Below are positions 6,133 to 27,283 of a stretch of DNA of 64,000 bases, piece by piece (positions within the stretch are counted from its first letter, which is position 1; every line of letters begins with the position of its first letter). The translations under genes were made by a program, and so were the position numbers. A model generated the notes under the pieces. The model worked only from the letters and a program-made list of their open reading frames with translations. It searched no databases and was not told the origin of the DNA. Source of the stretch: Coleophoma eucalyptorum (Eukaryota; Ascomycota; Leotiomycetes; Helotiales; Dermateaceae); contig JALRME010000018.1 in the NCBI GenBank assembly GCA_026120035.1, forward strand, positions 310,001 to 374,000, written 5' to 3'.

Positions 6133-8514
6133 ATGGCATCGCTACCCACCCCACGCCATCCTGCTGCTCTGCCTCGCCGCCGAAATGGGAAGGAATACGC
6201 CTGCGAGCCGTGCAGAAAATCTAAGGTACGTGGGATCCTAAGGTGGGAGGTGAGGTTCAGCGGGAATTCTGTAGATACAAGCACGTGAGCAAGTGCGCTC
6301 GATACTGTAGACACCCCGCTGGAGCCGATCCTCTCCCTTGCAGTAAAGCCATATAAGGCTGACCTATGAATTAAGATGCGATGCGATCATACTTTGCCAA
6401 CCTGCTTGAATTGTGAGCGGCGCAAGATTGTGGAAAGATGCATATATCTACCCGCACCTGAAACGCGGCCACATAATAAACGCTCCACGGGCTCTACGTC
6501 GTCCCTGGTATCTCCAATTCGAGATACTTCTCTTAATGACCAGTTGCCGGGACTAGAGCTTTTGAATGCTCCGGGCTCTAGTGACGAAGATAATGCAGAC
6601 GACGATGCTGCGATCTTAAAGCCTTCTTCCGGTTTCTTTGGGCCTACAAGTTTCTCAGCTGTCTTCCTAGATAGCATGGATGGTTTGGCCTCGGATGTTA
6701 CCAGTCCTTCCAAAGATGATGATCATGCTCACTTTCTGGAAGAAGTAAAAGTCAACGTATACCGAGCCAATGAAGAACAAGATGCTCATATGACGCTCGG
6801 CGTCAAAGTTCTTGGACGATTACCGGACCAGGCGACATGTCAAAGAATTGTCGAGGTCTATGCAGGAAAGAATAAATATGGAATGGACAAGAGCTTTCAC
6901 AAGCCTGCATTGATTCATTGTATGGCATCACTTTGGTCAACATTTGGAGTTGCCTTGAAATCACCGAGAAATCAGCGCAACATCAAAGAGATGGCCAAAA
7001 TCTTGACGCGCAACACAAAATCTATCTTGCGGGACACTGAGGATGGTGCATCATGGCTTGCATCAATATCTGGGTGGAAGGTCCGCTGGGAAATGATAGG
7101 GATTTTATTTGCAACGCTTGGCAATACAGCGTTGAGTATCCTGGAGACCGATCCTTTCTGGGCAACACAACCAGGTTCCCGCAAATCTCGAATTCAGTTT
7201 GCCTCAGAAATGGTTCAGTGTTCAAATTGGTGTATTCAACTTAGTTCGCAGAAGGATAACATCAATTACTTGATGATTAGCCTTCTCTTCAAGCGAACGA
7301 TTTTGGAGAGTCAGTGTACTGGGGATACTAGTAAGTTGATGAAATCAAACCACTTATTGTTTAACGCGATATTGACCTTTCATAGGCCTGGTTCTTTGGA
7401 GACAACACGGAGACCTAATAGCAGCAACCACTGGACTAGGACTCCATCGAGCGCAGGATCTCGCTGCGCCTGTTACAATATCATCTGAAATGAGAAGGCG
7501 CATATGGCTGGTTGTTTTTGCTGTTGACAAAACACTCGCGACATTTACTGGAAGGCCTCCCGGACTAAGTCACCGTTACATGTCATGTCCTATGCCTCTG
7601 GACCTTAGTGACGATATCCTGCTTGCTCCTAGAGAGGAGATCGAGAAGGCTATTAGCGAGTTGGATTCTAATGGATGGAATACTAAAGGCGAGCTGTATA
7701 CAGCTACTAACTTGAGAGCGAACATGGTACATGCGCTCATATCGAGTGAGATTCTCGAGATTGCACTTGGAAACAGCTCTCAATATTCGGACGAGCGACT
7801 TATGTAAGTGAGCATATAGTATTGCATTTGCAAAAGCTAACAATTACCAGAGACCTCAAGATCCGAAATGAGCAAACCTTGAACTCATACCCACCGTGGT
7901 TGCATTACAGCAAAGACTCTGCCAACCCGCACTATCTACAATGGACAAGACTGTCATTACGTTTTAGATATCTGAACTGTTGTCTTCTCCTCGAACAATT
8001 ATGGACAAAGAGAGGCCATGCAGATAAACAACCCTTATTAGATGTTGCTCGGGAAATGCTCGAGCTTACCGTTTTCATGTGGACAGAGAGAGACCAATTT
8101 CGAGACCGACACTACGACTACGACTTTATGATCATGTTCTACGGAATCCCCGCCGCGGGCGTCATTTGTGTTGAGCTACTTCGACAAATGAAACAGTCAG
8201 CTCCCTCACACTTACACGTCCCGCGTTCAGAAGTTATACCCAACCTCAGCTTACTTGTCGGCTTTTTGGACTGGGTGCAACCAACAGCCGCTAATAAGCA
8301 ATTGTGTATAAGAATGAGGGCAGTGATCAAGGGTATTCTAGATCGTATTTTAGATGCTCCTCCCGCATTAGAGATTGTGCCCGCCCTTGAGCACTTTGAT
8401 ATCGCCCAGATGGATGTCGATGATCTTAAATGGCTGGATTCGATTGATTGGACAAGGGGTCCATTTGTAGATCTTGGTATGGACGGATTAGATAGTTATG
8501 CGAATTTTTCTTGA
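6133..8514 (+). CDS. Zn2Cys6 transcription factor with fungal-specific TF domain
   Basis: Four exons (6133-6225, 6376-7330, 7386-7803, 7851-8514) encode 709 residues. The zinc cluster is split by the first intron and reads CEPCRKSK then MRCDHTLPTCLNC after splicing; its six cysteines lie at 24, 27, 34, 41, 44 and 53. A fungal_trans middle homology region follows, with the typical motifs WRQHGDLIAATTGLGLHR and MRRRIWLVVFAVDK, which only appear in frame once the 55 bp intron is removed. The family binds CGG-type half sites as dimers in the nucleus. Its target is unknown. It lies just upstream of the arylsulfotransferase-family gene, which is convergent with it. Confidence 0.92.
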
Positions 8515-8755: not shown

Positions 8756-10665
8756 TCACAATGATCCATTGAAGGCACCAACAACCCATTTAGGTCTCCT
8801 ATTCATCCTGCCAGCGTAAAAACCAATACTGAACAACCCAGCAACACCAACAATTATCGATAAGTACCGCCTATCAATTCGACACTTTGCAACCTCCTTG
8901 ACTTGTGGAGTAGGTTCTTTCACATTCATGAATTGTGGCGGTTTTTGGCCGTCGTTAAAATCAGACTCTGATGGCTGTTGATCAGCTTGGGCTGAACAGT
9001 GCCAAGTCTTGCACTGTGGCCGCAGCTTTTCAGATGGGATGACTGTCGTCTTCACAAGGGATGTTGCGAGAACTTTGTCATGCTTATCGACGGCTTCTAC
9101 ATATCCAGACGTGATATTTTGCAGCGCAAGGTATTGTGTCTCGAAATCCAGCTTTTCGACACTCCCGAGAAATTCTGGCCTCGTAGGGGAGCTATTCCCC
9201 ATCCCGTAGACTTTCCAACTCGATACCTCGGTGGCTCCATTCCAACTCATGTAGAAATAAGTAGATTCGGTTTCCGAGCGAGCATAGATATATATATCGG
9301 GGACGGTGTCTGGTTTGCCAATCCAACCATGTTTGATGGTCCGATACGTGGCTACCGTGTGACGTTCGAATTTCACATCCAAAACACGCTCCCCATCTGG
9401 CGCGAACTCACTAAATTGTGGAATTCCACCCCAGCTCACAAAAGCATTACCATTCTCAAGGAATCTTAGGCTTCCTTCATGTCGTGAAAGTCCACCGTTG
9501 AGCGGTGACCATTCTTTCAATACGCTCGCTTTCATCTCTTGCTTATTCAGTTCGAGCACCATGGCTACCGAGTCATAGCGTGTTTGTGTTGCTCCATTCC
9601 AGCCGTTGTTGAAAAGTGAAATCTGCTCCTTCTCGTTACCTTCTTCAAAGATTCGTACATCGTGCTGTGCCGAAAAGGTGAAATGTTCAAGTTCAAAGTC
9701 AGAATTAGCACCTCCTAATCTCCAGATGATTGATGAGTCCTTGTGGGAGACCCTGTATATTGTATCGGTATGTCTTGAGGAAATAAGATAATCTCCATTT
9801 TCGTACTTCTCAACCGAATTGATGTGGCTGAATCAAGTCAGCAAGATCCAACAGGGGATATGGAATGTCCTTACAAATAGTCCCACGGCTTCCAAGTCGA
9901 ACTTCCAACACCATGGAGTAGATTCATCTCCATGACTGATTCTTCGATAGGTACATGATCTAGCGAATTCCACTCAAAAAGTACTTTCCCCGTCTCAAGT
10001 TCGTATTCCCTAAATCTACAGTCGTACAACCAACCCAATCCAGCAGTATAACCCTTTGACGTGAGATCCGTTTGCACTGCAGTATACATAACCACAATAG
10101 CAACCCGTCCGTTATCGATCAGATGGAAATCATGTGCATCAAGTGAAGTTCCTTCCTTTCCCGCACTGATGGTGCGGTACAATTTGTATGACTCGTCAAG
10201 AAGAATGATCTGACCAGAGCCGTGGCCACGCTGCATCGACCCACGAAAGAAAGCAAGTCCCTGGGCAGTCGTGTTGAGCTGGACAACTTTGAAGTCCCAC
10301 GCCATGACATTACCAAACCCAGCATTGTAACCGGACCAGACAAGATTCTGCATTGTTAGCCACCTTTCGCTTTTCTTTCACACAGGTTCTTTTGGACCTA
10401 CACCAGCATTGTCGTAGATGAGCGGTGCAGATTGGTGTGGTCCAGTCCATGGAGCCACAAACCAGTATCCAGGAGCACATCGCTCCACCTCGTTTACACG
10501 AATATCAAAAGTAGGTATATTCAAGTCGGGTCTCTGGGAGAAAGTCACTTCTCTAGTTTAAGTGGCGAGCTCAGAGGTACTTACGGATAAAAAGGACAAC
10601 GCAGAAGCATATTGCCTGGGCATCCAACTCAGGAAGCACAGTTGAAAGAGCAGAATAATATTCAT
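8756..10665 (-). CDS. Secreted/membrane-anchored arylsulfotransferase (ASST)-family protein
   Basis: Four exons on the minus strand (10665-10585, 10533-10384, 10347-9875, 9827-8756) give 591 residues. Exon 1 is a signal peptide (MNIILLFQLCFLSWMPRQYA). The body shows family hallmarks: APGYWFVAPW, DAHDFHLIDNG, FHINSVEKYENGDYLISSRH and FTFSAQHDVRIF. These belong to the fungal Arylsulfotran_2 (PF14269) beta-propeller family. A C-terminal hydrophobic helix (YLSIIVGVAGLFSIGFYAG) close to the end predicts a single-pass anchor with the propeller outside or in the ER lumen. Bacterial ASST moves sulfate between phenols; for the fungal family no reaction is established. The middle intron is only 36 bp but is needed to bypass an in-frame stop. 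Confidence 0.88.
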
Positions 10666-11647: not shown

Positions 11648-13311
11648 ATGACCAAAAACCAGAGCCTGACCGATCCAAATCCGAAGCTTTTGCGCTCCTA
11701 CGCCGGCTGCACCCGTTGCAAGAGACGACGACAACGCTGCGATGAGCAGAAGCCTCAGTGCGGCCGCTGCACAGGTGCCAATGTGACTTGCGAGTATGCA
11801 ATGAATCTGCGATGGGGAGGAAGGGACTTTCATCGCTCGCGGTTTGGGCAGTGTATGAAGGAGAACGTATCTAGGTTAGGTAGGTACTAATCAAATGTTT
11901 CGCTAATGCCCAGAAGAGACCGATATTAATATTTTCTACTATAGATGATTCTAGCGCGGGATTTGTCTACACGTCTCATTCCTCCTCCTTAACAAAACTG
12001 CCGGTTGTACAACAAGAGGCTCTATTTACTCTTCCGAATGAAATCCAACTTCTATCATACCTCTCGGTCACGGAACGAAGTCTCTTACACCACTTCATAA
12101 ATGAAGCATCGAGGATTACCTCGTGCAACTCACACGTGCAGAAGGAATTATGCCAACTGGTACTGCCTTTGGCGGTTGACTCGCCTGCACTCATGTATGG
12201 GACATTGGCCTGGGCTGGGATACATAGTGTTCAGCAACGAGGCATGATAGACAATGTGAGCAATCCAGATGTGTTTATAGCAGGATTGAAGGCGAAAAGC
12301 CTATCGGGGCTACGGACAGAACTGGACCGGCCTGAAAAAGCGAGAATGAATACTTTACTTGCCACAGTCAGGACTTTATGCCAATGTGAAATACACTCCG
12401 GCAGTGATGGGACCAGTACTTGGAGAGTGCATATTGAGGGCGCTAAAGCCATAATGGCTGCTGCGAAGAATTCACAATCAGAGGATGGCCATAGAAATAT
12501 TGATATCCGCCCTGAGGAGCGTTTGTTATACCGATGGTACGATTCTCTAGATTCACTTGCCGCTCTCACATCTTCCGGAAACCCTGCGAATTCCGGGTAT
12601 ATGATTGAAGCTTTTGATTATGAGATGCAACCAGATGAGATCTATCTCGATGACTACAACGGCTACTACACAGATCTTTCGATGCTGCTGGGGAAGATTG
12701 GACTTGCTATCAGAGCGCTGCGTGAGCAAGGCACGCTCATGGGGAGCCCTGCAAGCATGGAAGCAGTTGCAGATTTCTTTGAACAGAAAGTCCAAGAGAT
12801 GATAGCACGAGACCATAATTCGCTGCCGAAGTTCTATTCTGGTGTTATCGAGAAATTGACCATGCAGGGGATTTATGAGTATGCACTCTGCAATGAGAGT
12901 TACCTGCAGTTAGCCCTGATTCATATCAATAGGCGGTTACGAAAGCTCTCGTCACGCGCACCAGTAATACAGGCATCAGTGAGGAAAATCATCGAGTGTG
13001 TCAAAGCTATTACTCCAGCAACAGGGTCATCACCACTAATTGTGATGGCTACGCCGCTGTTTACTGCAGGCTGTGAAGCTCATAGCGAAGATCGCGATAC
13101 AGTGAAAGAGCTACTACTTCAACTCTATTCGAGTCTAAAGATCAGGAATATTAAGTTGGCTTTACAGGTGCTCGAGGCTTATTGGGCCCGTGAAGTCGAG
13201 GACGAGAACTGGGAAGATATTCTGAGTAAGTCTTCCAATGTTCACATTACCCAATTATCTTGATGTTAATGCCCAACAGAGAAAAGAAATTGGGACTTTA
13301 TTCCATACTGA
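11648..13311 (+). CDS. Zn2Cys6 transcription factor, probable pathway regulator of the RiPP-like cluster
   Basis: Three exons (11648-11879, 11945-13225, 13280-13311) encode 514 residues. The last exon is only 32 bp and supplies the end KKRNWDFIPY. The N-terminus carries CTRCKRRRQRCDEQKPQCGRC, with cysteines at 21, 24, 31, 38, 41 and 48, the standard Zn2Cys6 spacing. The rest resembles the fungal_trans_2 type (for example WRVHIEGAKAIM and RLLYRWYDSLDSLAAL) common in short regulators that sit inside secondary-metabolite clusters. It is immediately upstream of a P450 on the same strand and next to the UstYa/tyrosinase block. A role as the local activator is inferred from position only. Confidence 0.9.
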
Positions 13312-13967
13312 AGATTGGCATTTTAGCCAGATGCGAACCAGCATCTAGCCTAGTACTCGATCAGTGCGACATGCTTATTTGTTTAAAAATCATCATAATG
13401 ACAACATGCTGCACTTTTTTTCTTCTAGTATTCTCAAAGGCTGCAAAGGTAAACCTTAATTAATAAAACATCACTAACATTTGCTATCCGAAGAATATTC
13501 AGGCCTTATCAAGAGGTTGGTGATTCGAGCGGAAGATACTGCATGTTATGACCAAAATATGAAACACTCTATCATAGAAGATCAATATTGCCAATAATAT
13601 AGCAGACTTTTTAGTAGCAAGAATATCTTCAGAGGACAATCTCGTGACCGTCACTTATCATGCGTATCGGCACAACTTTCTTTTTTGGGTGTAGTTCCAG
13701 ATGTGGATTGACCTCACCTCCCACTTTTATCACCAAAAGTGCCACTCCTGGTATAACTTATTCATCACCGTTCACCTACTCTCAACATTTCTCGAACTCT
13801 TTCCCTTCCTAGTCATACACATCCTGTATCTGGCGCAAATATCATAAAACTTTAATTCACTAGTAGAAAGGCTGCATTATAAGAACATGTCTAATTCCCG
13901 GTGATTGATGAAATCCGCAGACCAAGTAGCATCACTGAAGACCCAATCTCGAAACTGCGCTATCAAC
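13312..13967. other. Intergenic, promoter of the P450
   Basis: AT-rich with pyrimidine-rich tracts near 13680-13810. No coding signal was found apart from an optional in-frame upstream extension of the P450 from 13905. Confidence 0.5.
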
Positions 13968-15660
13968 ATGTTTCTCGAATCATGGCCAGTGCTAGCAATA
14001 GCAGCTCTTTTTATTCTGATCTTTACAAGCCTGATCAGGCGAGCACGCTCACCTATAGCCACTATTCCTGGTCCCTTGTATACCAAATTCACCAGTATTT
14101 GGCTCATGCGCCAGGAATTTACTGCCAATCGCCGTCCATATATACACCAGCTTCATGAAAAGTATGGCCCAGTTGTGAGACTGGGTCCGAATGAAGTTTC
14201 GTTCTCATCTGGAGAAGCAATCAAAGAAATTTATGCGTCAGGTGGAAGTGGCTATGATAAAACGGAATTCTATACACTGTTCAAGCAATTTGGGGTTAGG
14301 TTAGTTATACTAGGCCTCCTCAAGGCTGAATGCTAAATCTTCTTAGGACAATGTTTTCGACGCTTGTCAAGGGCGATGTAAGTACATGCAACCCTACGGC
14401 ATGTCAAGTCTCGTTACTAATCCGGTATAGCATAGCCAGAAAAAGCGATACATTGCTGGCCAGTATGCGAACACTAATATCATGCGGCCTCAAGTCATGA
14501 GTGGCATTCAAGATCGAGCAGATGCTTTTGTTCAAAAGTGCAAGGACTCTGCAGGAGCGAGTACCGATGCCTATGTTAGTAGTATCCTGTTAATGGACAT
14601 ACATGATCTAATATTTAGCTAGATATCGCTACATTGCTTTGCGCTCGACTGTGCAACCCATCATTTATTCCACCCTTACGGCACGCATTCTATTGAATGT
14701 GATGAGGATCTGGGGTTAATGAAGGAGCTTTCCTACCACAATAGTCTCCAGAGTTTGTTTCTCCTGAAGACATATCATACACAGCTCGCTAATGAATATC
14801 AGGATACCTATGCCAATACTATTTCCCAGATTTCTGGAACTTTTTCATGAAATTCAGCAAGCCGAAACGCAGCCCTGATTCAAATGAGTACGTCTTAAAG
14901 ACAAACGAGCAAAGCGATCTTGGTGAATGTACCTTGCTACACAAGCTGCAAGCCAGCAGCAACTTCTTTCAAAAGACAGAGATGGCTGCGGAGTGTATGG
15001 ACCACATGGCTGCTGGTATAGATACCACAGGCGATGGTCTCTGCCTTCTGATGCATCAGATGTCGCTACCAGAAAGTCAATATGTCCAAAAGAAGCTCCT
15101 TGAGGAATTCAATCAAGAGCCCAACAAACCGCTAGATGAGTTACCATACTTAGACGCTGTTGTCAAGGAAGGTTTGCGCTGTTTCCCGCCCATTCCCATG
15201 AGCCAACCAAGATATGTCCCGTCAGGTGGACGGACTATTGACGGCTATTTTTTCCCTGCGGGGACTATTGTAAGTTGTCAGGCCTGGACAGTCCATCGCT
15301 TGAATGAGTCTGTCTTCCCCGACGGTAACAAGTTCTTGCCTGAAAGATGGCTGGATGAGAAAGGTAGTGTAGAGAGAAATAGACTATACTTCTCTTTCGG
15401 AAGTGGTGGTAGAGGATGTACTGGCAAGCAGTAAGATTTCCCTTTCCACAGAGCTTTATACAAGGTCTTGGGGATTCCTTCACTAACAGGCTTCTAGTTT
15501 GGCAATTGCAGAGATGAAGGTTTTGCTCAAGGAAGTTTACTCTCGCTTCGCCACAACCATTGCGGATGACATGGTCGGCAGCATGGAGTTAAGTGATCAA
15601 GTCATTTCAAGCCGGCCTCTGGACCAAACCTGCAAGCTTGTATTCGCCGAAATTAAATAA
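13968..15660 (+). CDS. Cytochrome P450 monooxygenase (candidate RiPP-cluster tailoring enzyme)
   Basis: Six exons (13968-14299, 14347-14377, 14431-14574, 14623-14752, 14803-15430, 15498-15660) give 475 residues. The start at 13968 places the membrane helix (WPVLAIAALFILIFTSLI) at the N-terminus, followed by the proline hinge IPGP; an in-frame ATG at 13905 would add 21 residues. Motifs: I-helix AAGIDTT, ExxR in KEGLRCFPP, FLPERW, and heme loop FSFGSGGRGCTG with Cys418 as thiolate ligand, completed across the last intron (GKHLAIAEM). The intron at 14753-14802 is required for frame and yields LQRYLCQYYFPDF. An ER-bound oxidase; substrate unknown. Gene order next to UstYa and tyrosinase genes recalls the P450 of the ustiloxin cluster, but direct orthology is not shown. 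Confidence 0.9.
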
Positions 15661-15769
15661 TACATACCGTAGGACAAGTTGTGATAATTGTAGGAGAATT
15701 TATTCACAGTAAACAATAATAAGTTACTTGTACAGACACAATCTATTGATTATATTTCCAAAAGCCACT

Positions 15770-16867
15770 TCATCCTGAATCTGGATGCGGGTGCGGATGT
15801 GAATGTGAATGTGAATGTGAGTGGACGCCTTGGCTAGCAGCATGACTAAAGTCCGGTCGGGGAAACAACTTAACATTGGACCAGTCTCGACACTGATGAG
15901 CTGCTCCCCATCCACTAGTGCCTTTATACGAATGTTCCTTTACAAATTCAGGTCTCTCAAGTGTTAAATCGCCAAAACAGAGCACAACCTAATTTGGGGA
16001 TAATCAGCAATGAACCAAATAAATGCAAGACGGACGGACCTGGCGTAAATATTCAATACAGTGTGTTACATGCTCTGGACTTGAGATAGATCTCCCTTGT
16101 TCAACCTCTGTAAAAGCATGTTTCAACTCACCCTATTTTATGATCATAGTTAGCACAAAGATCGTAATGATCCTGCCTTGGGTGAGAAATATATTGGGAG
16201 AATGGAATAACTAACAATGCAATGGATCTGATGGAACATTGAAGGCACAAAGGCCTCACTCTCAGGTGCCAAGCTGTTGTTGTAAAATTGAGAAATGGGT
16301 AGACCTCCACTAAGACCATATTTGGCAGGATGTGCAATTTCGATCCAAGCACCTAGGTCCACATTAGATCTATTATTCAATTGCTTGGAGTGTCGCTATA
16401 TCTTCTCACCTGCGTAAAGCTCGTCCCAAGGCGTGCTCGTTTCTATGTTTGGTCCTGAGTCCCATTTCCCATCATGTGGATCAGAATTTACAAATCGCAC
16501 GTCATTTTGAAAGATTGAATGGTAAGCCGGTGCTAGATACAGATCTATCGTTAGTCGATGGCCGTTGAAAACTGAGCATGAGCGCCTGCTTACTATGTCC
16601 AAAGACTGCATTGTGCGCAAAATTATCGTGATCCCCTACTCTTGCTTGCCAAATAGCGAATGCGCTTATTGATGTGAGTGAAGTGAGAGCAACCACGCCG
16701 ATGATGCTTGCTATGAGTTGTCGTTTTGTGAGGTGAACACAGCTTGTCGGTGGCATGTATTCTAGGCCCTCCTTTGAGGAAAGGCCAGACTCGACGGTTT
16801 CATAACGATGAGAGTTAAAAATTGAGCCTATGTTGAAGCGAATCATATACTTCATTGTGAGACCCAT
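15770..16867 (-). CDS. UstYa-family (DUF3328) oxidase A with histidine-rich tail
   Basis: Five exons on the minus strand (16867-16594, 16532-16410, 16352-16216, 16132-16040, 15988-15770) give 281 residues. A single membrane helix (about 51-73) makes it a type II protein with a luminal catalytic part. Both diagnostic motifs are intact: HQIHC (173-177) and HVTHC (199-203), the latter followed by IEYLRQVVLCFGDLTLE. UstYa-family proteins are metal-dependent oxidases that cyclise or oxidise RiPP core peptides or related metabolites. Oddly, the C-terminus ends in an alternating run HSHSHSHSHPHPHP (265-278), encoded by an imperfect GAATGT-type repeat at 15781-15825. One of three UstYa paralogues within 4.6 kb. 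It is convergent with the P450, whose stop is 109 bp away. Confidence 0.9.
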
Positions 16868-18042
16868 AAGTCAATAGAAAGTGTCGTCCTTATTTCGTCT
16901 TTGCTAGGCATGAGATGTAAGTATGCTGAATTGATGCTCTAGAATTGTGCTCAAAGTGTCTTTTGCTTAGAAGCTTTCCCGCCTAGGACGTGATTCTCAA
17001 CAGAAACAGTAGGTTATCGAGGGGTTCTGCTTACAGGAGCATCCAGTTTACTCACCACATCATCTGTCCCATTTGCCGGTTCTGCCAGAATGATTAAGCG
17101 AGCTAAGTGAATACCCTTTTCGGCTTTCATATGCTGGCATCATCATGAACTATAGAGTCAAGCTGTGGGTCAATGAAGTGCGAACCAATCGGGGTAATGA
17201 TTCCATTTTTGACATAATATATGAGTTTCACACTTTTGCTTCGACTAAGCTACATAAAAGAGTTGCTTTATCCGGGGTAGGAAGGTGCTACTGAATTTAC
17301 CCATGGGGATATGTCATGCATCTGTGCCGCAGGCTTTTCAAGCTTATTGTAACCGCAAGGCTATTTAACCAAAGTCAACATAGCGTATCGTATGCAAGTA
17401 AAATATTTTGCATGCTATAAGGCCGAAGTACCCCCATGTAACTCTTTTTGATTATTGGAGCATCGAAAGGAGGCGTGGCTGGTCTTAAGCTTCAGCGCTT
17501 GCAGCATCTTATGTACTTCGTCGGATAGTTCGTCAGCCCGCGGCACATTTAAGGCGATCCGTTCCGTAAGTGAGGAGTGCAGCAAGTGGGGGAGGTCAGG
17601 CGGAATTCAACCTCCATCAATGAAATCACAGCCTATCATATGGCTGCAATGACCCGGAATTTGTTGAAGATGTCCAAGTTTCTACCTTCTACTTATGCAG
17701 GAATCGTCTCTGTACGGTACCATTTGCGTACATGTTATAAGAATAAGCTTACCACCCAGCTCTTTATGAACCTAATCATTCTTGAATTCGGTCTTTTTCG
17801 AATATTAACCGTAGTGGTGGTTTACGAGACCCCTCCGAGTAGTCCTGACCTAGAGCTCTACACAATGCCTTGCAAGTTTCCACCGAGTATACAGGTTTGT
17901 GGCCTGTATATAGAAATCCCTACCAAGCGCAAGTGATGAATTTCTTAGCCTTTTCTCAATTCTTGGCATGCAACGTCCAAATGATCCATTTTATGGCGCT
18001 CAAATATTCCAATCGTTTGCCTGTATCTTCTGCCTCCAGATA
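16868..18042. other. Intergenic, possible gene relic
   Basis: No intact gene. On the minus strand about 17650-17430 an open stretch of roughly 60 codons reads in a coding-like way (for example RIALNVPRADELSDEVHKML), interrupted upstream by a stop. It has no start, splice context or recognisable family. It could be a decayed gene fragment or chance. Confidence 0.25.
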
Positions 18043-19052
18043 TCAATGAATTGTGCCAACCGGCATTGGTGGAAGTGGATGACCATGTTCTTCCGTCCAA
18101 GCAAATAGTGCGTCTTTGTTGCGACATACATGCCGTTGCCCATTTGGAATGCCAGGCCATACGAGACTCAAATTTATGAGTGTGGGATCCATGAAACAGC
18201 TCACAGCTTGACGAACAGCCTCAATACAGTGAAGAACGTGGTCCCATAAGATAGGATCGGTATTTGTTGATGTCCCGTTCAACTTATAAACTGTTTCTCG
18301 TACAACTTGCTATAGAGGCTATCGTCAGCGAAATTGTATGGAAATTTGGCTTTTATCTTATAGTTACGTACCAAGCAGTGCATTTGATGGTATCCTGCCA
18401 CCATATAGTGCATTTCTGAAGAATTGTCCCCCGTCACATCACCGAGGGGTAGGCCATACTCCGCCGCATATTCAAAAGAAAGAGCTACTGATCCTCCATA
18501 CTCTATTTGTTTATATGTATTAGTAACTGTTATATGAGACCATCGTATACCTCGTGGGAGATACATGGAATGTTCTCACTTGGATATGTATTCTTCCATC
18601 TGTCGTCTGCATATTTGACTCCATTTATCTCCACGTCACCAAGGTGATTCCAATCATGATCAAAAGATGTCAAGACTTTTTCCGGCTTTCCAACTATGGG
18701 AATTGTTAGTTGATTTCTAGCCAAAGAACCAGCAGAAATACATACAGTAAGTTAGATCTGTAACTCCCCCAGACTGCTGCTTATTCACAGCTGGAAGCCG
18801 CCAGTACCAAAATAGGTTCGAAAAACACAGTAAGAGGATTAAGAAGCACCCAGAAACTCTGTAAAAACGAATACTTGCAACAGTCTTGCTTCGATCACGG
18901 AGTGTTGGTATGTTGTCTGTTGCTTCTAAGGAGGATGTTTCTGATGATGCCTCGAGTAGTTTCTCGCAATCCTCATCCATCTTGCCAGCTGCCATTTCTC
19001 GATTCATAAAATTGAAGATAAGACTAAGAGAATGACAAGTTGCTACTTCCAC
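18043..19052 (-). CDS. UstYa-family (DUF3328) oxidase B
   Basis: Four exons on the minus strand (19052-18746, 18693-18541, 18502-18372, 18309-18043) encode 285 residues. A membrane helix lies at about 64-83. The motifs are HQMHC (192-196) and, after an intron, HVLHC (221-225) followed by IEAVRQAVSC. The segment EVYDEYGGSVALSFEYAAEYG matches in position the WDELY...Y(G)LP region of paralogue A, which supports a 38 bp intron (18540-18503) despite its small size. In-frame methionines at residues 16, 20 and 25 make the exact start uncertain. It should sit in the ER/Golgi membrane and oxidise the same precursor as its neighbours. It is divergent from paralogue C across 481 bp, so the two may share a promoter. 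Confidence 0.88.
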
Positions 19053-19533
19053 GAGGATGGTGTATGATCTTCAAAATTGTGTGTGCAAAAGATGCAACAA
19101 CGCCACCGAATATCGAAAGGAATGAATCAGTTCGTAAAGGGATGTATGCCCGTTTCACAAGTATACCTCTTCCGCATGTATGAAGATGACCTTGGTTGTG
19201 CCGCAGTGATGCAGCGCGTAAAGTCCTCCGAACAGGAGGGGTGTTAATGAAGGACCGAAGCGAGCAGAAGTGAGGCGAGGTAGCAGTAGGACCGAAACCT
19301 GCATATGCATCTGAGGGGAAAATACCCCATGTGGGGTATCCATGTGTATATTAAAGACATTTTTAAAGTACAACGTTGTATTCAAAGACATTGCCGCTTT
19401 ATTGGTTTCCCTAGGCTCTGTGGTTGCTGCGTCTCAGAGTCCCACGATCTAAAGCGAATCTCAGAATTTGGACGACGCAAACAACTACTTTGCGCTTGAC
19501 GCGGTCAAGAAAGTGCTCGCCAGCTCGGTCACA
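19053..19533. promoter_or_regulatory. Divergent promoter region of UstYa genes B and C
   Basis: A 481 bp interval between two head-to-head UstYa-family genes. No coding sequence was accepted; an in-frame extension of gene C from 19468 is possible but would push its membrane helix further from the N-terminus. Confidence 0.45.
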
Positions 19534-20313
19534 ATGAAATACGAGACTTTGTTACAAGAAACCAATAACGATGAAAATATAGCAACGTCTGAGGATACTC
19601 AACATGAGAGAGCATCAAAAGCCATCGAGCGGAAAGCAACGAGAAGATTGATGTGGGCAGTCCTAGTCAACATCTTTCTTACCGTGCTTCTGCTTGTGTC
19701 GCTCAGCTTTCATATATTTAAGCCTACTACAAGTAGAAACTCGGTATTCAAGGCTCAATATGGAAGGAATTATGACTACATGACACTAGATCATGAGTTT
19801 GACCATCTGTGGGATGGTCCAGCTGTGGAAACGGGTGGATATATTGTGATGGCAAAGGACGAGTATGGAAATCCAACAGAGCATGGGGCTATCGCAATGT
19901 AAGAATTCTTCTGTGTAGAAAAAAGGGTACTTTGAATTTTGTGAATTTATATATTCATTCATCTTAGGTTCCATCAATTACATTGCATGAAAGCTATACG
20001 CAAAGCGCTACAAGATGGATATGCTGGCAGGTTGATGGTTAAGGATTGGAGAATGGATGGCCATTGGCCACATTGTATGGACTATTTGAGACAGGTAAGA
20101 CCCAATCTCTCGGGGTCTTCAGTGTTGGTATTCAAAATTCGTGATGACTGATTTATGTTCTTGTGTTAGACAATATTGTGTTCCGCCAACGGACAGATCG
20201 AGCGAGAGACAGAACTGAACGGGACAATTTTTGTCGACGGTGCACTAGATTGGCGGGAATGCGGAGATAGAAATTCACTATACGAGATGTTTGTCGAAAA
20301 GAATATATCTTGA
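19534..20313 (+). CDS. UstYa-family (DUF3328) oxidase C
   Basis: Three exons (19534-19898, 19968-20094, 20170-20313) give 211 residues, the shortest of the three paralogues. A membrane helix spans about 39-61. HQLHC (124-128) lies right after the first intron and HWPHC (154-158) is followed by MDYLRQTILCSANGQIE, the closest of the three to the canonical HCxDYLRQ form of the family. The ATG at 19534 was chosen over 19468 because it leaves a short cytosolic tail as in paralogues. The stop codon is 51 bp from the end of the convergent tyrosinase gene. Such spacing and shared oxidative chemistry argue for a common pathway. Confidence 0.9.
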
Positions 20314-20364
20314 CAAGATTATCAGTATCTGCCACAGTTCCAAATGATTATTTTCAAATCTATC

Positions 20365-21664
20365 TTAATATCTATAACAGAGAATGTCCGTCTGGGTACT
20401 CATTGCCTGAAACACTTTGAAGTTTTCACCAACACCCGTATAATTCATGGTATCTTTTATAGATGCCGGCCCTGAAGTTGATGTATTAAAACCCTGTCCA
20501 GCATACTCAACGAGGCGTTTCCCGGGGTTCTCTTGCTGCCACAACCACCACAGCCGATCAAGTTGGGCGTGATGTAGCCAAAACAGCGGGTCTATTTGTC
20601 GTAATTAATGGTTAGTCTGCGCCAGTTTCTCTTATGAAGTATTGCTTACCATTTGCAGCACTGGTTTGACCAAAATCACCTCTAATGCCCCAGTGCATCG
20701 CATTATGTACTGTCCATTCTACCATTTCCCGAAAGTGGTCGTACGTTCGAGCTGTCACAAGTCTCCCGATCTCAAAGGGTTTGAACTGTTCCCCAAACAA
20801 ACTGCCAAGCTCTTCTGTGTCATAATTTTTAAATCCTCTAGTTAAGCAATGTGGGAGCTTAGTCTTGTTGTAGAACAACAATTGCATGTTACTAAAAGGT
20901 CCTTCCGTCACGCAATTTCCGTCTGCGATTTGCGATTTGGCGCTGACATTACCGTCGCCTCCAAACCCGTGGACCTTATCCCAGATTGAAGAGGTATCAA
21001 GACTCTGCCAATCCACGGCCCAATCCCAATAGCTTAGGAAAGTTAGCAATTGGAGAAATTTGAGTCAGCTGGTGACTTACGGGATGTGACCTTTGAATCC
21101 ACATTTGTCAATCAAGGTATTTTCATAGATATGGAGAAACATCCTATGCCATGGCAGAAATGAAGCAGCAAAGTGCGCTTATAAAAAGATCAGTATTCAA
21201 CAAGTTCTGGGGAGATTTTCGTCGCCTACATTCTTGTCCTATGAACATATGTACATAGACAAAATCATCATACAGCGTTCCATCGGTCCTCATCGCAGAC
21301 GGCAATTCCGCCAAACATTTCACGGCTTCTAAGTAGTTCTTCTTCTCCGAATTGCGCAGACTTCTCCATTCTCGACGCGTCGGAGGAACCTCACAGACCG
21401 AGGAAGTTGATGCAGGAGGTAATGTAGTCGGAGCGGTGATAGTTGTAGAGACATACGTTGCTGTCAAGATGCTAGAGGCGATACAAGACACAAGAAGGGT
21501 CAAGGCAAAGCCGCCATAGTGAAGCCAATTGCTTTTGTTACGTCTAAAACGGCAAATTTAGCAATTCTGTTTCTAAGAAATGTAGCCCCGTCGCAGACAC
21601 ACCTCTTCTCGTCGATGCTTCCATTTTCTGTGTCTGAGACAGCTGTGTACTTCACACGTTCCAT
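20365..21664 (-). CDS. Membrane-anchored tyrosinase (UstQ-like)
   Basis: Five exons on the minus strand (21664-21603, 21543-21230, 21177-21081, 21032-20650, 20591-20365) encode 360 residues. The N-terminus is a type II anchor (hydrophobic about 30-52). Copper site A: His119 in VYVHM, His127 in SHFAASFLP and His136 in PWHRMFLH. Copper site B: His267 and His271 in VHNAMHWGIRG, plus His292/293 in DPLFWLHHAQLDRLWW. All six ligands are therefore present once the introns are removed. It also has CGFKGHIPYWDWAVDW. Small luminal tyrosinases of this type hydroxylate or couple tyrosines of dikaritin RiPPs such as ustiloxin. It is divergent from the tyrosine-rich peptide gene, sharing a 627 bp 5' region, and convergent with UstYa C. 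Confidence 0.92.
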
Positions 21665-22291
21665 AATTGGCAGCTTTTATTAAATTTCAGACATTGGACC
21701 ACGCGGTTTTCAAGAATAATGTAAAATGCTCGTTCTCGCAGCCGAAAATGAATGGGAATAAAGGTCGGACAATTTGTTAGTACCCACAACCAAATTAGAA
21801 AGTACATGATAAAATCACTCACTGTCAAGAGAGAAGGGCATGGCGCCTATCCCAGATGCCGATGAAAGATCCATCGCCGCTCTTGACTACCTCCCCATGG
21901 CAATATTGCTGACTGTGCCACAGGCACACATCGAGACTTCAGATGTAAGACCGCTCGGCAAAACTCCCATGCAATCATGTGCAGTATGATGAGCTTGATA
22001 CTGCACGAAGGTTGTATTTCCCAATTCATCCAGCGGCCCGATTCAAGAAACCTGTGATCCTAGGACTAGAAACCCCCCGTACAGGAAAATAATCGAGCAT
22101 CCTCTCAGTATGACGGGACCAAGCATCGTGACTAGACTTGGCAAGCGTTAACAGTGTCTATAAGTCAAGTACCGTCTGCCATCGAATTCTGGTCCGTATC
22201 CAAAGCAAATCATTCATCTCCAAGAACCTCTGATATCTACTTCCAAATCCACTAGTAGCTCTGCTCGCTTCAAATCAACCCAACTTTCAAC
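21665..22291. promoter_or_regulatory. Shared 5' region of tyrosinase and precursor-peptide genes
   Basis: Between head-to-head genes. On the plus strand TATAAG at 22159 precedes a pyrimidine-rich leader and a CAACATG start context, features of strongly expressed fungal genes. No coding ORF was accepted. Confidence 0.45.
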
Positions 22292-22468
22292 ATGCAGTTC
22301 ACCAAGATCTCTGCTGTTCTCGCACTCATGGTCGCCTTCGTCGCTGCTGCACCGATCGCCGACCCTGCACCAGAAGCTGCACCAGAAGCTGCGCCAGCTG
22401 AAGCTCCATACTCGCCAGCCTACTACTACTCCTACTCAACCGGTGCTGAAGCCGAGGACAAGAAGTAA
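22292..22468 (+). CDS. Small secreted tyrosine-rich peptide, candidate RiPP precursor
   Basis: A single-exon 58-residue ORF. Residues 1-20 are a clear signal peptide (basic K5, hydrophobic core, AAA cleavage region). Residues 21-39 form an acidic Pro/Ala/Glu pseudo-repeat (PEAA units). The tail holds Y40, Y44-Y46 and Y48 in PYSPAYYYSYSTG and ends AEAEDKK. Five of 19 residues from 40 to 58 are tyrosine. Head-to-head with a tyrosinase and beside three UstYa oxidases, it is the natural candidate substrate. The tyrosine-rich segment recalls known dikaritin cores such as that of asperipin-2a, but unlike those precursors there is one core, and the only dibasic site is the terminal KK. An unrelated small secreted protein cannot be excluded. 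CDS confidence exceeds that of the precursor role. Confidence 0.68.
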   Translation: MQFTKISAVLALMVAFVAAAPIADPAPEAAPEAAPAEAPYSPAYYYSYSTGAEAEDKK

Positions 22469-24799: not shown

Positions 24800-26326
24800 T
24801 CAGACTTTCACCACTTCTTCCAATACCTTCTTTATGAGCTCCAGATCTCTGTTAACGTCTACCTTCCAGGTGCTGACGGCAAATCTAACTGCTGGTTTCC
24901 CATCCCATGCGGTCCCACTGACATAGATCTTTCTAGTTCCGTTTATTCGTTTAACCAATTCTGCATTCGTAGTATCGTCCTTTGCTCGGAATAAGACCAC
25001 AATATGTGTGTCCTTAAAGTCGTCCCCACTCGCAGCAAGCACTTCATAAGCTCCATGACCATGCAAAAAGCTAGCAATGCCTCTGGCTAACCTGACCTGA
25101 CGGACAAACATCTCTTGCATCCCAACCAGCCCATAAGATACCAGTACCGCATATACCGGCAGTGCTCGGAATCGGCGTGAATTTTCCAGTCCGATGTTAA
25201 TCGGCGAGGGGATGGAAGATGGGCCAGCGGAAAGATATGCGGCATTTGGGTTCTGGAATGTCTTGGGTAGAATCTCCGCAGATCGGCTCAAAAAGAAACC
25301 ACAGTCGTACGGAACGTTGAGCATCTTGTGACCATCACCTGTAATTGAGTCTGCAAGTTCAAGACCAGATGTTGCTGTCCGCAGAGCCGAAAATTCCGGA
25401 GTGTCTGGCAGAGCGCGAGCAAAGAGACCAAATGCTGTTGGAAAATTGTCAGTAAATATCTTAGCAAAGAAGATGAAGCACATACCTCCATCTACATGTA
25501 GCCACGCCCCATATTGGTCACACAACTTCCGGATCTCCTGCATTGTCTCTAAGCCATCTGTCGCAAATTTACCGGTGTTGACTTCACCAGCACTAATCGC
25601 AACAATGCTCACACAACCGCTTTCAGCAAGCTTCAGGTTTTGCTCTAGGGCCTTTAGATCAATTTCCCAAGGATTCGCTCCTGAGATAGCCTTTACTGAA
25701 GCTCTGCCCAGGCCAACAATGCTTGCGGCTTTGTATAGCGAGCTGTGGCCGATAGATGTGAGGACCTGAACTTCAGTAATTCCAGCCTTGGCACAAGCCC
25801 GGAGGAGTCCCAGCTCGCCCACGCCTTGTTGCTCGCCAACCTTCTCAAGTCGCTTTGCAATAACGGCTTCCCTTCCACAGGCTAAGCCCAAGGTATTGGC
25901 TCCAGTAGCACCTGTGGTGAAAGTCCTTCCTAGCCACTGATCTGGGGATCCAATGTCAAGAAGTTCAATCAACATAGTCAGCGCCCTGTCTTCGACAACA
26001 GTGCTAACACTCTGATCTGGTAGATGCACGTGCACATTCTGATCAAATGCTGTGACAATATTGTCTGCAACCTCAGCAATTGGCAATACACCTCCAATTA
26101 CGAATCCATAGTAGTTTGCCGAAGTCTTGGGCCCATTGAAGCCAGGTGCTACGTCTTGGAGAAGATGTGTTGCTGTTGCTTCTTCTCCGAGGCCATTGTA
26201 GGGCAAAGAAGCGGGAAGAGAGTTGGCTGCTGCGGTTAGGGCAGCCGGTGAAGGAAGAGTATCTCCTGGCGTCGAATCAAGCACGGCACGAATCTTTTCG
26301 TATGAGGAAGAAATTGAGAAAGCCAT
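24800..26326 (-). CDS. PLP-dependent decarboxylase (aromatic-L-amino-acid/tyrosine decarboxylase family)
   Basis: Two exons (26326-25486 and 25434-24800) give 491 residues. The 51 bp intron (25485-25435) has no stop and is a multiple of three, so an unspliced read would also stay open, but splicing restores HVDGAFGLFARAL. Family marks: TTGATGANTLGL phosphate-binding region, Asp279 in HVDG contacting the PLP ring nitrogen, and the Schiff-base Lys317 in SITGDGHKMLNVPYDCGFF. Group II decarboxylases of this fold act on Tyr, DOPA, Trp, Glu or Asp; the substrate is not readable. It lies 2.3 kb beyond the tyrosine-rich peptide gene. A tailoring role is possible, but PLP enzymes of known dikaritin clusters (such as UstD) are a different fold type. 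Confidence 0.92.
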   Translation of the reverse strand: MAFSISSSYEKIRAVLDSTPGDTLPSPAALTAAANSLPASLPYNGLGEEATATHLLQDVAPGFNGPKTSANYYGFVIGGVLPIAEVADNIVTAFDQNVHVHLPDQSVSTVVEDRALTMLIELLDIGSPDQWLGRTFTTGATGANTLGLACGREAVIAKRLEKVGEQQGVGELGLLRACAKAGITEVQVLTSIGHSSLYKAASIVGLGRASVKAISGANPWEIDLKALEQNLKLAESGCVSIVAISAGEVNTGKFATDGLETMQEIRKLCDQYGAWLHVDGGMCFIFFAKIFTDNFPTAFGLFARALPDTPEFSALRTATSGLELADSITGDGHKMLNVPYDCGFFLSRSAEILPKTFQNPNAAYLSAGPSSIPSPINIGLENSRRFRALPVYAVLVSYGLVGMQEMFVRQVRLARGIASFLHGHGAYEVLAASGDDFKDTHIVVLFRAKDDTTNAELVKRINGTRKIYVSGTAWDGKPAVRFAVSTWKVDVNRDLELIKKVLEEVVKV

Positions 26327-27283
26327 GGTAAAGCAAGTAAATAAGTGTTATAATGAAGGACCACGCTTTTTGGGATGGGAGAGCGAAGCGTGAAGGAGAA
26401 GGGAGTAGACAAGCACACTACCGTAGAGCCAGGAATGAAGATAATATACCAAGTACCCGCTCTTCTAGATCAACTAACAAAGGCTTACCAGCCAGGTTTA
26501 CACTTGTTGTGTGAGTCACATAAATCCCCTATGCTCGTACCTTCGTGTGCCGCACGGTTATGGTTCTGACAGTTGAAGTTGACATTCACGCCTTAGTAAT
26601 TTATGTCGGGGCGATGAGAGATCGCAAACTCCTTCCTCCATCCTCAGGCCTTTACGTAAGCGACATCGGCATCTCAGTCTGGTGGGTCCTGGCACAGCAC
26701 CGCGAAGTCTCTCAGCGCCAGCTCATTGACAATAACAACGACAATCTCCATTTCGGGCCATCGAATCCATTTTAAAGGCTATCTCATGGTTCATCTAATC
26801 CCATCGGGATTTGATCTGATGTGAAGCCACGAAGCCTGCGGCAATCATTCCAAGAACTCCGAGAATTGGTCGATTGCAGAGTTGTCTCTTTTTCCGTGGA
26901 CAGACCTTGGACTTTTTCAGGTTGACTCGTAACGATTTAGCATCGTCGAGCTGGGGGTTTTGCCTTATAGGAAATTATCGCAGAAAGTGTCAAAATAGCT
27001 ATTTGTTTGTCGCTTCACAAAGGACGCCTTGTTTGTAAAGCGCTTCTTTGCTGGTTGTAAGTTTAACAACAGCGGCAGATTTATTGGTTACGATCATTTT
27101 GTTTCCATCTAGCTTTGAAGACGCATTTCATGGCCTTATATCTACCCACTTGGTTTCGAGACCGGTGCTTCTGAATTAGACAATATGAAAGATAAACGGC
27201 ATGGAGCAGACAATGGAGTGAAATGTAGGAACACTATTCTGAAATTACCTTTGGGGGTTTAAGATACTTTCTGTCCAATCTGC
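26327..27283. other. Intergenic stretch
   Basis: Upstream of the decarboxylase and downstream of the amidoligase. Only short motif-less ORFs. Confidence 0.5.

Follow-up and report, generated by a model that had tools for sequence, protein, structure and literature searches.

The published precursors of the dikaritins, fungal ribosomally synthesised and post-translationally modified peptides (RiPPs), consist of a signal peptide followed by repeated cores that are cut apart by Kex2 (PMC7329392, PMC6514808). In the ustiloxin pathway, a tyrosinase and the proteins UstYa and UstYb are described as necessary for the first cyclic intermediate (PMC6514808, PMC12048977). UstYa proteins belong to DUF3328, a binuclear copper family in which oxygen-dependent oxidation is described for CctR, and the same source cites dependence on copper and oxygen for ApnU and AprY (PMC12435403). 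A large survey of fungal precursors sought repeated cores between Kex2 sites (PMC7329392), while a 2025 survey of lichens reported UstYa clusters without a precursor, one clan of them with a tyrosinase, and counted a single core among the possible reasons (PMC12048977, section 22). Here we describe seven genes within positions 11648–22468 of a 64-kb stretch (the window) of the 45-Mb, 101-contig assembly of Coleophoma eucalyptorum: a Zn2Cys6 regulator, a cytochrome P450, three UstYa proteins (A, B and C), a tyrosinase and a 58-residue peptide. The block is very likely a biosynthetic cluster. On balance we favour a UstYa/tyrosinase RiPP cluster with a single-core precursor that lacks repeats: one secreted peptide, rich in tyrosine, would be converted to a modified and probably cross-linked product.

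A tyrosine-rich peptide beside UstYa proteins and a tyrosinase

Gene models were spliced at GT..AG introns, and domains were called with Pfam at its curated cut-offs (25 bits for PF11807 and 22.6 bits for PF00264). A preliminary description, made from the letters of this stretch, had placed the seven genes here, claiming three UstYa-family oxidases with two intact HxxHC motifs each, a membrane-anchored tyrosinase with its copper histidines, a tyrosine-rich 58-residue peptide with a signal peptide, and 51 bp between UstYa C and the tyrosinase. The spliced models recovered every gene in its place, six of them with a Pfam family; the profile searches that it proposed with PF11807 and PF00264 put all four enzymes above cut-off, and the gap is exactly 51 bp (20314–20364).

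The candidate precursor gene (22292–22468, + strand) has one exon, and its product had no match in Pfam or NCBIfam. The peptide comprises a signal-like start (residues 1–20; MQFTKISAVLALMVAFVAAAP, a plausible signal sequence by hydropathy), an Ala/Pro/Glu-rich stretch (20–39), the tyrosine-rich YSPAYYYSYSTG (40–51), which holds five tyrosines within twelve residues, and the tail AEAEDKK. There is a single core without repeats, and the only dibasic pair is formed by the last two residues (KK). A search of 5.8 billion proteins, confined to annotated proteins with exact 5-residue words in common, scored 39 candidates, of which a single one reached E ≤ 1, BP6252_04451 of Coleophoma cylindrospora (62% identity over 98%). 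The two peptides are identical at 18/20 signal positions and at 16/17 positions of APYSPAYYYSYSTGAEA (the eighth being Y/F). Both internal gaps of the alignment fall in the middle, in the pro-part, and the tails diverge both in sequence and in length. Because this sole match is numbered next to the tyrosinase orthologue in C. cylindrospora, the peptide is not a stray open reading frame (ORF).

The peptide is unique in its own genome. The sole other match (E 0.435, residues 1–37, C14) sits in an unrelated 134-residue ORF and was rejected as a paralogue. Single-exon ORFs that begin with ATG, span 30 residues or more and have a signal-like start number 39 in the window, nine of them within 8–26.5 kb. 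Besides the peptide itself, these nine comprise three fragments of cluster genes (P450, UstYa A and UstYa C), one frame within an unidentified ORF (7750–8514) and four of 30–36 residues with zero or one tyrosine. One signal-like ORF of 36 residues (ALLVSLGSVVAAS; 19342–19452, + strand), about 80 bp upstream of UstYa C, is perhaps a relic or a tiny peptide.

UstYa A (15770–16855, − strand; 5 exons, 277 residues), UstYa B (18043–19007, − strand; 4 exons, 257 residues) and UstYa C (19534–20313, + strand; 3 exons, 211 residues) scored 76.7, 74.5 and 57.2 bits against PF11807, and carry HQIHC/HVTHC, HQMHC/HVLHC and HQLHC/HWPHC, respectively. In each protein the two motifs are 26 to 30 residues apart and are followed by two later cysteines, and one hydrophobic stretch lies near the N terminus. 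Profile, paired motifs and N-terminal helix (the helix from hydropathy only) thus place 3/3 in the UstYa/DUF3328 family. UstYa B and C are only 22% and 29% identical to UstYa A, so the three do not stem from a recent tandem expansion. The C-terminal tail of UstYa A is histidine-rich (HSHSHSHSHPHPHP), possibly for metal binding, and a shorter version occurs in C. crateriformis. A comparison with solved structures, made for UstYa A, found no related one, its eight matches being at chance level (E 0.012 or more). The least certain detail of the gene models is the weak splice donor GTCCGT in the last intron of the UstYa A gene.

The tyrosinase (20365–21664, − strand; 5 exons, 360 residues; PF00264 at 138.4 bits) has one N-terminal hydrophobic stretch. 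Its histidines at 119, 127, 136, 267, 271 and 293 occupy the six expected copper positions, and we take them to be the ligands of a type-3 copper site; PF00264 and these six histidines are the features expected of a UstQ-type tyrosinase. A protein search gave 331 matches, of which the best 120 were used for column counts and a tree. Histidine stands at the six columns in 115, 118, 120, 119, 57 and 120 of these 120 relatives. It is missing from the H271 column in the other 63, and a cruder pattern count gave 49 His and 35 Pro there among 94 recognised relatives; the A. parasiticus UstQ keeps the histidine, and PhomQ1' has proline.

The tree, built by a quick method and rooted at its midpoint, has 119 rows, one for the window protein and the rest for 118 of the 120 listed matches, two matches of more than 450 residues being omitted. 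The window and C. cylindrospora tyrosinases fall in a 19-row clade (support 98) with Talaromyces proteolyticus and Xylariaceae. Together with a Xylogone protein and a clade of 23 rows (support 99) that contains the A. parasiticus protein named UstQ, it makes up a 43-row group (support 93, inner order open). PhomQ1' lies outside the group, as does, far outside, a Fulvia protein labelled ustQ. In these 119 rows the window enzyme is thus not inside the A. parasiticus UstQ clade; since it shares the 43-row group but stands in a separate clade, it appears akin to UstQ without being its orthologue.

The Zn2Cys6 regulator (11648–13311, + strand; 3 exons, 514 residues) has PF00172 and PF11951 above cut-off. 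The P450 (13908–15660, + strand; 6 exons, 495 residues; PF00067 at 168.7 bits) has an N-terminal hydrophobic stretch by hydropathy and carries the heme-loop motif, as FGSGGRGCTG. The tyrosinase and peptide genes stand head to head across 627 bp (21665–22291).

Conservation of genes of the block in relatives

The closest relatives by protein are in Coleophoma (Leotiomycetes, Helotiales, Dermateaceae). The C. cylindrospora orthologues of UstYa B and the tyrosinase are BP6252_04448 (85% over 237 residues) and BP6252_04450 (86%), and the peptide match BP6252_04451 is numbered directly after the latter; this order was read from locus-tag numbers, not from DNA. C. crateriformis has an orthologue of UstYa A, BP5796_01600 (89% over 252 residues). 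UstYa B-like and tyrosinase matches could also be paired by equal contig size, a proxy for the same contig, in T. proteolyticus (3906961) and Xylariaceae sp. FL0016 (385476). In all, 3/31 UstYa matches, Coleophoma included, were paired with a listed tyrosinase match (119 of the best 120 of 331 have a contig size). The preliminary description had named the lack of a conserved peptide in species that keep the UstYa/tyrosinase block as a point on which its proposal could fail. As far as this was followed, the proposal did not fail on it: the peptide is kept beside the tyrosinase, by number, in C. cylindrospora. C. crateriformis gave the UstYa A orthologue without a peptide match among annotated proteins.

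Whether such clustering could arise by chance was judged from intron-blind genome searches, whose counts are minima (they missed even UstYa A of the window). They gave at least 47 UstYa matches, which merge at 15 kb into at least 26 loci, and at least 28 tyrosinase matches in at least 15 loci. The window holds the only 1 of 15 tyrosinase loci within 20 kb of a UstYa match, with 0.36 expected (P 0.30); one tyrosinase locus near a UstYa gene is not improbable and is unremarkable by itself. What makes the cluster convincing is that 6 kb contain a tyrosinase gene as well as three UstYa genes, and that the C. cylindrospora orthologues of UstYa B, tyrosinase and peptide are numbered together.

Proposed pathway and alternatives

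In the pathway that we propose, the Zn2Cys6 protein would turn the genes on, and the 58-residue peptide, which we judge to be probably the precursor, would enter the endoplasmic reticulum by means of its signal-like start. There, in the lumen, tyrosinase and UstYa copper enzymes would oxidise tyrosines of the single core to give ether or other cross-links, a step proposed by analogy with the ustiloxin tyrosinase and its two UstYa proteins. The P450, judging from its family, may contribute further oxidation. The Ala/Pro/Glu-rich pro-part might be removed without a repeated Kex2 cut, perhaps by dipeptidyl or other peptidases, or might be kept. The modified peptide would then be secreted, so that the pathway would work like that of a dikaritin, with one core instead of many. 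We infer the substrate, the kind of cross-link, the removal of the pro-part, the export and the role.

Several observations weigh against this pathway. The peptide has no repeats and no internal dibasic site. Its end is EDKK, as against a 13-residue end, SSKDLGIIGDQIP, in C. cylindrospora. X-Ala/X-Pro pairs fill 9/10 steps of the pro-part in the window and 10/12 in C. cylindrospora; shuffling the residues gives equally good results (P 0.15 and P 0.49), so a dipeptidyl-peptidase ladder is kept as an idea only. The C. cylindrospora orthologue of UstYa C, expected as BP6252_04449, was not among the matches seen. The proposed link between peptide and enzymes rests on gene order in close relatives, which can be mere collinearity, the comparison having stayed within the genes of the block. 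Further, no 7- to 10-mer was common to the five upstream stretches beyond what dinucleotide shuffles give. CGG half-site pairs of one spacing reach at most 3/5 of these stretches, there being no null for pairs; one of them, CGG-19-CGG, occurs ahead of the regulator gene, between the UstYa B and C genes and between those of tyrosinase and peptide.

A less probable alternative, which we nevertheless take seriously, is that the enzymes act on another substrate, be it a small molecule or a precursor whose gene lies elsewhere, while the peptide, a small secreted protein, is their neighbour and takes no part in the pathway. UstYa proteins are found in non-ribosomal peptide synthetase (NRPS) and polyketide synthase (PKS) pathways as well (PMC12048977, section 22), and the absence of a shared upstream word would fit this alternative. 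So would the annotated-protein search, in which C. crateriformis, T. proteolyticus and the Xylariaceae gave related enzymes and no peptide match. However, great variability is reported for RiPP precursors (PMC12048977, section 22), so the lack of peptide relatives elsewhere is weak evidence, and in C. cylindrospora the peptide is kept beside the tyrosinase with its tyrosine-rich stretch conserved. The longest complete ORF of the window, a polysaccharide deacetylase, has only 763 residues, so none of the complete ORFs of the 64 kb, where other scaffold enzymes were not searched exhaustively, is of NRPS or PKS size.

It is improbable that the product is structural, the tyrosinase making dopa or quinone and the peptide being cross-linked into the cell wall, a spore coat or an adhesive, with no small cyclic product. 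Five tyrosines in twelve residues, a signal-like start and the absence of an internal protease site would suit such a role; three UstYa proteins and a P450 would be unexpected for simple quinone cross-linking, and the peptide has just 58 residues with one tyrosine-rich stretch.

We also scanned for repeat precursors, reading single frames. In the window, scanned twice over its full length, no repeats bounded by dibasic sites came to light, and its tandem repeats amount to 10 short arrays, the longest (33 bases) lying inside the 58-residue peptide gene itself. Elsewhere, the scan took in 20 stretches covering 17/25 other UstYa loci and, as a positive control, found dibasic-bounded repeat ORFs in 3/20 (L024, L039, where the ORF starts at about 6340 on the + strand, and L041, the only one with a visible signal-like start). 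With the window scans empty and its arrays few, a classical multi-core precursor lying outside the window or missed by the scan, with the 58-residue peptide as a decoy, is very unlikely, even though such ORFs do occur near other UstYa loci of this genome and an intron-split precursor could escape single-frame scans of the window and 20 stretches. A second tyrosine-rich candidate is an 84-residue signal-like ORF near a UstYa match (L032:2461–2715, − strand), with KR sites and imperfect SYGTY/YASYG.

Upstream of the block, an arylsulfotransferase-like gene (8756–10377, − strand; PF14269 in two unspliced ORF pieces) lies on the opposite strand about 1.3 kb ahead of the regulator and is a possible cluster member. 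Of 15 arylsulfotransferase-like loci, 2 lie within 10 kb of a UstYa match, this one and C7:962154–962955 (0.19 expected, P 0.015; P 0.049 within 20 kb), the proximity having been tested after it was noticed, at two distances only. This proximity hints at tyrosine sulfation and at nothing more. The group on C7 also holds the repeat ORF of L024. On the other side, about 5 kb beyond the peptide, an Amidoligase_2 gene (PF12224; 27284–28366, − strand) adjoins a PLP decarboxylase gene (24800–26347); no sign in the window data indicates that either belongs to the cluster.

More tentatively, and at some distance from what we think probable, the locus may represent a separate fungal RiPP route, in which UstYa proteins and a tyrosinase act on a non-repeat, single-core precursor rich in tyrosine. 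Its pro-part would be removed without Kex2, after which the neighbouring arylsulfotransferase might sulfate tyrosines (O-sulfation). If so, non-repeat precursors would be invisible to repeat-based mining, which would miss a single core of this kind, and the route could explain why UstYa/tyrosinase clusters such as the lichen Clan R1 have no known precursor. The locus offers a concrete, conserved single-core candidate next to a tyrosinase gene, and the same genome contains classical-type repeat ORFs near other UstYa genes. If the link between peptide and enzymes is true, UstYa clusters without a precursor could be searched for small tyrosine-rich secreted neighbours. Among the titles and abstract openings listed from the open PMC library, none described this cluster or a proven single-core UstYa precursor.

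Comparison with dikaritin and related clusters

The preliminary description had also stated that the block matches the minimal content of the ustiloxin, phomopsin and asperipin clusters. This is not supported: the peptide has a single core, the window has no dibasic-bounded repeats, and methyltransferase, transporter and peptidase are absent from the seven genes. Measured against the five-gene definition of dikaritin clusters (Ding et al. 2015, as quoted in PMC12048977, section 23), 2/5 kinds are present, namely the tyrosinase and multiple DUF3328 genes, three here. The other 3/5, a repeated precursor, a methyltransferase and a transporter or peptidase, are lacking among the seven genes. For the methyltransferase, the 13 flanking ORF pieces scanned were of other families or unmatched; for the transporter or peptidase, the flanks were scanned in part. 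Working dikaritin clusters that lack one or more of the five kinds are noted in the same section of that source. The redefinition of Montalban-Lopez 2021, quoted there too, takes a DUF3328 protein as the class-defining enzyme of a ribosomal peptide pathway (PMC12048977), and a definition by DUF3328 alone would admit the cluster if the peptide is truly the substrate. Kex2-bounded repeats, which together with a signal peptide mark a Kex2-processed repeat protein (KEP), were found neither in the peptide nor by the two scans of the window. Since repeats are lacking and 2/5 gene kinds are present, we describe the cluster as dikaritin-like and do not count it as a dikaritin cluster. The dikaritin-type label thus survives for the UstYa proteins, the UstQ-akin tyrosinase and the secreted-looking tyrosine-rich peptide, but not for a repeated-core precursor.

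Cyclochlorotine is a non-ribosomal product. It is the substrate of CctR, a DUF3328 copper hydroxylase (PMC12435403) to which the UstYa proteins of the window are likened from sequence alone: they share a membrane helix, HxxHC(x)nHxxHC and further C-terminal cysteines.

Like the described dikaritin clusters, the window combines UstYa proteins with two HxxHC motifs, a UstQ-akin tyrosinase, a secreted-looking tyrosine-containing precursor candidate and a zinc-finger regulator; as in the ustiloxin cluster, there is a P450. The arrangement differs, with the peptide gene adjoining the tyrosinase gene in the window, whereas the two are 7 and 8 genes apart in the ustiloxin and phomopsin clusters (PMC7329392, section 7). 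The aromatic core with several tyrosines and a UstYa enzyme recall asperipin-2a and AprY, the asperipin core being printed as FYYTGY (PMC6514808). In contrast to the window, the asperipin-2a cluster as described there has repeated sequences, one UstYa homologue, an isoflavone reductase and a transporter, and no tyrosinase among its four genes. The lichen Clan R1 likewise has UstYa-like genes and a tyrosinase with no repeat precursor found, a single core peptide being among the possibilities raised by its authors (PMC12048977). As described in that survey, Clan R1 has an O-methyltransferase, an FGE-sulfatase and no identified precursor, whereas the window has a conserved candidate.

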